A stretch of DNA of 64,000 nucleotides from Halorientalis litorea (GTDB taxonomy: Archaea; Halobacteriota; Halobacteria; Halobacteriales; Haloarculaceae). Every line of letters starts with the position of its first letter. The stretch's first letter is position 1. Shown one piece after another: positions 6,005 through 7,302 of this stretch. Below the pieces are notes generated by a model that was not told the origin of the DNA, did no database searches, and saw nothing but the letters and a program-made list of their open reading frames with translations. Where the stretch lies: contig NZ_CP095482.1 in assembly GCF_023028225.1 (NCBI RefSeq), positions 868,001 to 932,000 of the forward strand. The letters run 5' to 3'. The position numbers and the translations under genes are program-made.

Positions 6005-7302
6005 GCCAAATCGCGGATGTTGTCGGCGACGACTCGGGCGTACTCGCTGGTGGCGAGTTTCTCGCCGCCCTGAATCTGGCGTTCGATGTCGTAGGTGACC
6101 TTCTTCGCCTTGATGGCCTCCTCGACGGCGTCGCGGATGAGTTGGCCGGCGTCCTTCCAGCCCATGTACTCGAGCATTATCTTGCCCGAGAGAATCATCG
6201 CGGTGGGGTTGACCTTGTCCTGTCCGGCGTACTTCGGGGCCGACCCGTGGACGGGTTCGGCGAGACACCGGCCGTCGCCGAAGTTCGCGCCGGGTGCGAT
6301 GCCGAGGCCGCCGATTTGGGCACCACAGGCGTCCGAGAGGTAGTCCCCGTTGAGATTGGGCATCGCCAGCACGTCGTAGTTCTCGGTCCGAGTGAGAATC
6401 TGCTGGAGCATGTTGTCGGCGATGCGGTCGTTGACGACGACGGCGTCGTCGGGTGCCTCGCCGTCCCGCTCTTCCCAGAGCGTGTCCTCGGTGATAACCT
6501 CGCTGCCGTACTCTTCTTCCGCGACTTCGTACCCCCAGTCGCGGAACGCGCCCTCGGTGAACTTCATGATGTTGCCCTTGTGGACCAAGGTGACCGAGTC
6601 GCGGTCGTTTTCGAGGGCGTGGTCGATGGCCTTGCGGACGAGTCGTTTCGTCCCGAACTCGGTGATGGGTTTGACGCCGATGCCGACCGCACCGTCGTGA
6701 ATCGTCTCGTCGAAGCCCATCTCGTCCTCGACGAACGCACGGACTTGCTCCACTTCCTCGGTGCCGGCCTCCCACTCGATGCCGGCGTACACGTCCTCGG
6801 TGTTCTCGCGGAACGTGACCATGTCCAACACGTCCTCGGTGTTCTCGCGGAACGTGACCATGTCCATCTGGTCCGGGCGCGTGACCGGTGACGGGACGCC
6901 CTCGATGTGGTACGTCGGGCGAACGTTCGTGTAGAGGTCGAGTTTCTTCCGGAGTGCGACGTTCAGCGAGCGAAAGCCCGCACCGACGGGCGTCGTGAGC
7001 GGGCCTTTGATACCGACGTTGAACTCGCGGAACGCCTGTAGCGTGTCCTCGGGGAGGTTCTCGTCGTACTGCTGGCGTGCCGTCTCGCCGGCGTAGACGC
7101 GCATCCAGTTGATGTCGCGGCCGGTTGCCTCCGCTGCGGCTTCCAGCACCATCTGTGCCGCCGGACCCACGTCCGTCCCGATACCGTCCCCGTAGATAAT
7201 CGGTATAATAGGGTCGTTCGGAACGTCGAGTTCGTCCGCCGACGCGTCTACCACCTCGATTGTCTCCCCGTCCGCTGGCACATCGACCTTCTCGTAGGGC
7301 AT
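6001..7302 (-). CDS. icd: NADP-type isocitrate dehydrogenase with internal duplication
   Basis: Oxidatively decarboxylates isocitrate to 2-oxoglutarate in the TCA cycle. The 433-residue protein has the family motifs IIYGDGIGTD, LTTPVGAGFRSLNVALRK, LVHKGNIMKFTEGAFRDWG, NLNGDYLSDACGAQIGG and HGSAPKYAG. The segment DMVTFRENTEDV, which holds the isocitrate-binding Arg and leads into the catalytic Tyr (Y160 in E. coli), is present twice in tandem; only the second copy continues into YAGIEW. This adds 13 residues to the active-site region. The start MPYEKVDVP was chosen because the further upstream codons look non-conserved; CTTTTAG at 7325-7331 on this strand would make it nearly leaderless. Confidence 0.93.
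   Translation of the reverse strand: MPYEKVDVPADGETIEVVDASADELDVPNDPIIPIIYGDGIGTDVGPAAQMVLEAAAEATGRDINWMRVYAGETARQQYDENLPEDTLQAFREFNVGIKGPLTTPVGAGFRSLNVALRKKLDLYTNVRPTYHIEGVPSPVTRPDQMDMVTFRENTEDVLDMVTFRENTEDVYAGIEWEAGTEEVEQVRAFVEDEMGFDETIHDGAVGIGVKPITEFGTKRLVRKAIDHALENDRDSVTLVHKGNIMKFTEGAFRDWGYEVAEEEYGSEVITEDTLWEERDGEAPDDAVVVNDRIADNMLQQILTRTENYDVLAMPNLNGDYLSDACGAQIGGLGIAPGANFGDGRCLAEPVHGSAPKYAGQDKVNPTAMILSGKIMLEYMGWKDAGQLIRDAVEEAIKAKKVTYDIERQIQGGEKLATSEYARVVADNIRDLA
6790..6867 (-). repeat. Tandem 39-bp duplication inside icd
   Basis: Two adjacent copies with period 39 (6790-6827 and 6829-6866 are identical over 38 bases). In frame, each copy encodes the 13 residues DMVTFRENTEDV plus L or Y. 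The near-identity points to a recent slippage or duplication event, or to an assembly artefact. Confidence 0.9.

Follow-up and report, generated by a model that had tools for sequence, protein, structure and literature searches.

A 39-bp in-frame tandem duplication beside the substrate arginine of isocitrate dehydrogenase in Halorientalis litorea, probably a recent private mutation

The icd gene of Halorientalis litorea lies in the 64,000-nucleotide stretch of DNA analysed here (the window) and contains a 39-bp segment that is repeated head to tail without loss of the reading frame. Among the genomes compared, only this one has the doubled segment, which is young relative to codon changes private to its lineage, and the remainder of the gene is normally constrained. 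On balance, the duplication appears to be a very recent, real and private mutation of an enzyme that is already known, and it does not point to a new enzyme type.

The unit, ACACGTCCTCGGTGTTCTCGCGGAACGTGACCATGTCCA, is present in two adjoining copies that are identical at 39 of 39 bases (Table 1). Tandem Repeats Finder and a repeat search return a 39-bp unit in 2.0 copies with 100% identity at 6789-6866, and two matches to the unit are observed where 0.00 are expected from shuffled sequence as the control. The duplication adds 13 residues (LDMVTFRENTEDV), and the icd frame remains open throughout the 433 aa. The repeat detection and the open frame confirm the original prediction of an in-frame 39-bp tandem duplication in icd. 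That prediction had the site right but placed the repeat one base too far to the right, at 6790-6867. It had also recognised the near-identity of the copies, but this shift led it to count 38 identical bases. In the protein the order is ...PDQM-DMVTFRENTEDV-L-DMVTFRENTEDV-YAGIEW..., and the sole new codon created by the duplication is the one that spans the junction. The window has only one other near-perfect tandem array, which consists of 27-bp units and is located at 24092-24296.

Table 1. Positions in the window of the icd gene, the two copies of the 39-bp unit and the codon that joins them
Feature	Position	Strand	Remarks
icd, NADP-type isocitrate dehydrogenase	6001..7302	-	433 aa (420 aa if the extra unit is removed); the only icd in the genome
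First 39-bp copy (reading direction)	6828..6866	-	residues 147-158 DMVTFRENTEDV, codons 6864-6829
Second 39-bp copy (reading direction)	6789..6827	-	residues 160-171 DMVTFRENTEDV, codons 6825-6790; followed by Y172 AGIEW
Junction codon TTG (Leu159)	6826..6828	-	one base from the end of a unit plus two from the start of the following unit

The protein scores 600.2 bits against TIGR00183 (prok_nadp_idh, prokaryotic NADP-dependent isocitrate dehydrogenase), above the cut-off of 567.3, and its best solved relative is the Archaeoglobus fulgidus enzyme (2iv0); together these bear out the assignment of the gene as icd. The host genome has one icd only. Neither a second intact icd nor a monomeric-type isocitrate dehydrogenase (IDH) was found in it, and its other matches to icd belong to a paralogue of ~40% identity, which is most likely a 3-isopropylmalate dehydrogenase. 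An alignment with a 416-aa Klebsiella enzyme, whose numbering is that of the E. coli enzyme, shows that the substrate and metal residues S113, N115, R119, R129, R153, Y160, K230, D283, D307 and D311 (E. coli numbering) are all present. R153 and Y160 align with R165 and Y172 by way of the second copy, and this alignment confirms that the duplicated segment includes R153 and stops immediately ahead of Y160, as had been proposed.

The duplication is not shared by any of the relatives compared. All seven congeneric genomes have a 1260-bp match to icd, corresponding to 420 codons. When 111 homologues from haloarchaea, from archaea outside that group and from numerous bacteria are aligned, only the protein encoded in the window fills the 13 inserted columns, and in the adjoining columns covered no other insertion or deletion at the site occurs among the 111. 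The stretch that runs from PSP to YAGIEW has a constant length in the homologues and is 13 residues longer here, this constancy being a regularity of the present alignment and outside the formal definition of TIGR00183. A pattern scan at the DNA level for a doubled ENTED motif, with 9 to 39 bases allowed between the copies, identifies the doubled motif in icd in one of 391 genomes of the class, that of the host. The doubled motif is thus not general among haloarchaeal enzymes, as judged from the 391 genomes and 111 homologues, and a widespread haloarchaeal variant is rejected on the basis of the scan. The original prediction had given a doubled motif shared by many active haloarchaeal enzymes as grounds for its refutation, and it withstands this check. 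No comparable duplication in isocitrate dehydrogenase was found in the literature searched.

The scan also returned another match, in a genome of the same family (G085, L107 1501-1542). This match is 42 bp long and contains GAAAATACTGAAGAC twice, 27 bases apart from start to start, in low-GC codons unlike those of icd. In a genome of the same order (G083), icd is represented by two N-terminal fragments only (residues 1-166), which lie on two contigs (L202 1501-1992 and L204 1501-1992). Each fragment is followed by 26 masked bases and then by unrelated sequence, and the C-terminal part of icd was not found in this assembly (99% complete).

At two codons of the doubled segment, CGC and GTG stand in the window in place of the CGG and GTC of all seven congeners. 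Both of these private synonymous codons are present in both copies, so the duplication is younger than the changes that gave rise to them, unless the copies were later homogenised. Had the duplication arisen when the lineage diverged from its nearest congener, ~3.8 synonymous differences between the copies would be expected, and none is observed (P ~0.02). The estimate uses ~7 synonymous sites and a dS of 0.54 to the nearest congener, and a 39-bp unit is too short for finer dating. The shared private codons and the lack of synonymous differences support the recency claimed in the original prediction. In icd, 14 synonymous and 6 non-synonymous changes are private to the lineage, the congeners together having 56 and 38 (p = 0.46), and by these counts the rest of the gene has no sign of pseudogene decay or relaxed selection. 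Up to the duplication event, icd was normally constrained. The idea that the gene is on its way to loss therefore gains no support from its remaining sequence, although a very young lesion would leave no trace.

Because the two copies are identical, the sequence does not identify which of them is the insert. The likelier candidate is the first copy, in which case the R153-to-Y160 segment is whole in the second copy and the 13 residues precede the substrate strand. An AlphaFold2 model of the protein (mean pLDDT 85.4, pTM 0.87) matches 2iv0_A, the A. fulgidus IDH, with Z 53.6 and an rmsd of 2.4 over 412 aligned residues, keeping the fold of the isocitrate/isopropylmalate dehydrogenase family. 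In the model the second copy forms the strand 161-166, and the first copy is a low-confidence loop before this active-site strand (residues 147-159, pLDDT <50). The placement is biased, since the input alignment of 45 sequences itself favours the second copy, the one aligned to the relatives. A relative lacking the duplication is modelled with pLDDT 90.3 and pTM 0.90, and its strand (147-153) is at the same place. AlphaFold2 does not measure stability and is a poor judge of destabilising insertions; the model indicates that a register with the first copy as a loop is possible and does not imply that the enzyme functions. Insertion at the active-site loop, as originally proposed, is only one possible register, as the sequence is equally compatible with extra residues ahead of the R153 strand, where AlphaFold2 places them.

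The junction between the copies is blunt, and its ends share no base. Slippage at a microhomology is rejected: the junction has no perfect match, and the nearest candidate, a GTCC four bases inside, would yield a different junction. The description of the repeat as slippage-prone draws little support from a junction of this kind. Classic slippage leaves another pattern, and a blunt junction agrees with end-joining after fill-in of a staggered break or, alternatively, with an assembly overlap that was left untrimmed. A scan of ~1.0 Mb of the host genome, made up of the window, 40 stretches of 20 kb and the contig ends, detects one other comparable tandem repeat, a near-perfect repeat of 163 bp with a perfect run of 159 bases. 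That repeat aside, the ~1.0 Mb contains no other perfect tandem units of at least 30 bp outside low-complexity or short-period arrays. In two congeners (400 kb), one 74-bp and one 28-bp tandem unit were found. Together with the 163-bp repeat, these indicate that such events occur in the genus, at low frequency. The 163-bp duplication (L169 8523-8844; G000:C1 about 2268523-2268844) spans the 3' end of one gene together with the intergenic DNA that follows. From its sequence the gene looks like a diphthine-ammonia ligase, and a third, imperfect piece of its end follows the duplication. The host assembly consists of 5 contigs and is 99.94% complete, with no exact overlap between contig ends. One 9-kb contig resembles a Halomarina plasmid (81% over 30% of the contig).

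If the duplication is a real mutation, the sequenced lineage, or even just the culture, would have acquired a second, in-frame copy of a 39-bp stretch of icd in head-to-tail order. As the junction has no perfect microhomology, we infer blunt rejoining, for example by fill-in of a staggered break and ligation, or by a template switch. The second copy would supply the R153..Y160 segment in the native strand position, with the first copy extruded as a 13-residue loop just before the substrate strand. The enzyme would retain its fold and probably remain partly active, with stability or activity reduced, and would gain no new function. A 39-bp direct repeat can revert through loss of one copy, and reversion here would be easy, since one copy could go by slippage or recombination. 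A central enzyme encoded in single copy and carrying 13 extra residues beside its substrate strand is probably weakened. What speaks against a real mutation is that the site is absolutely length-conserved, and extra residues there in the sole icd of the genome would probably do harm.

An assembly or consensus error and a real mutation are mutually exclusive, and the former is an appreciable though not the favoured possibility. Contig or read ends overlapping by 39 bases would have been joined untrimmed, or a misaligned consensus would have doubled the unit, and the organism's enzyme would be a normal one of 420 aa. A blunt junction with exactly identical copies is what an untrimmed overlap gives, and an artefact would also agree with the finding that no homologue has an insertion or deletion at the site and with an icd that is single-copy and otherwise under normal constraint. 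However, a length that is a multiple of three has a 1 in 3 chance under an artefact, so preservation of the frame weighs about threefold towards a real event, and the small number of contigs and high completeness of the assembly also count against an error. The repeat scan and the contig ends leave a systematic overlap artefact unsupported, and the artefact raised in the original prediction would have to be a single fault.

A loss-of-function allele is a sub-case of the real mutation, and an unlikely one. icd would be dispensable on rich medium with glutamate, and an inactivating insertion could be spreading or fixed in the culture, perhaps on some chromosomes only. Polyploidy, together with efficient conversion of genes from one chromosome copy to another, has been found in the haloarchaea studied to date, and their cells may be heterozygous for a time (PMC4056108, PMC11276520). 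A harmful allele could therefore persist for a while beside a normal one. The location of the insertion in an invariant region and the lack of a second icd or a monomeric-type IDH in the genome are compatible with inactivation, but the frame is preserved, and the gene has neither another lesion nor relaxed selection. A real and functional doubled segment that is fixed throughout the species, giving a working IDH with two copies of the substrate-arginine strand and possibly changed kinetics, is improbable. Adaptive change is a separate reading and a very improbable one, in which the 13 extra residues would alter kinetics or substrate use, by analogy with active-site-loop duplications in some beta-lactamases. 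Short tandem duplications that alter enzyme specificity have a precedent, though one of kind only, in KPC-82 (PMC8218621), and the catalytic residues are kept here; however, the duplication occurs in no second species of those compared, there is no known selective pressure, and elsewhere in the protein there are only 6 private amino-acid changes.

Should the mutation prove fixed and functional, a region without insertion or deletion in any examined homologue would be able to take 13 extra residues. A real and tolerated duplication would offer a natural test of how an active-site region of strictly conserved length takes up extra residues, and would capture such an in-frame event before selection removes or mends it. 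An artefact would be a caution for the host genome record. Real or artefact, the duplication by itself says nothing new about how the IDH family works.

With the KPC-82 beta-lactamase (PMC8218621) the duplication shares a small head-to-tail form, residues added near the active site and an intact frame. In KPC-82, though, the tandem duplication comprises 2 residues and has a measured effect, whereas that in icd comprises 13 and is under no known selection. The likeness to NADP-dependent IDHs (TIGR00183, with the A. fulgidus enzyme 2iv0 and E. coli Icd) extends to a full-length match, the fold and the active-site residues. The enzyme encoded in the window differs from these by the 13 extra residues adjoining R153, in which it stands alone among the homologues examined.
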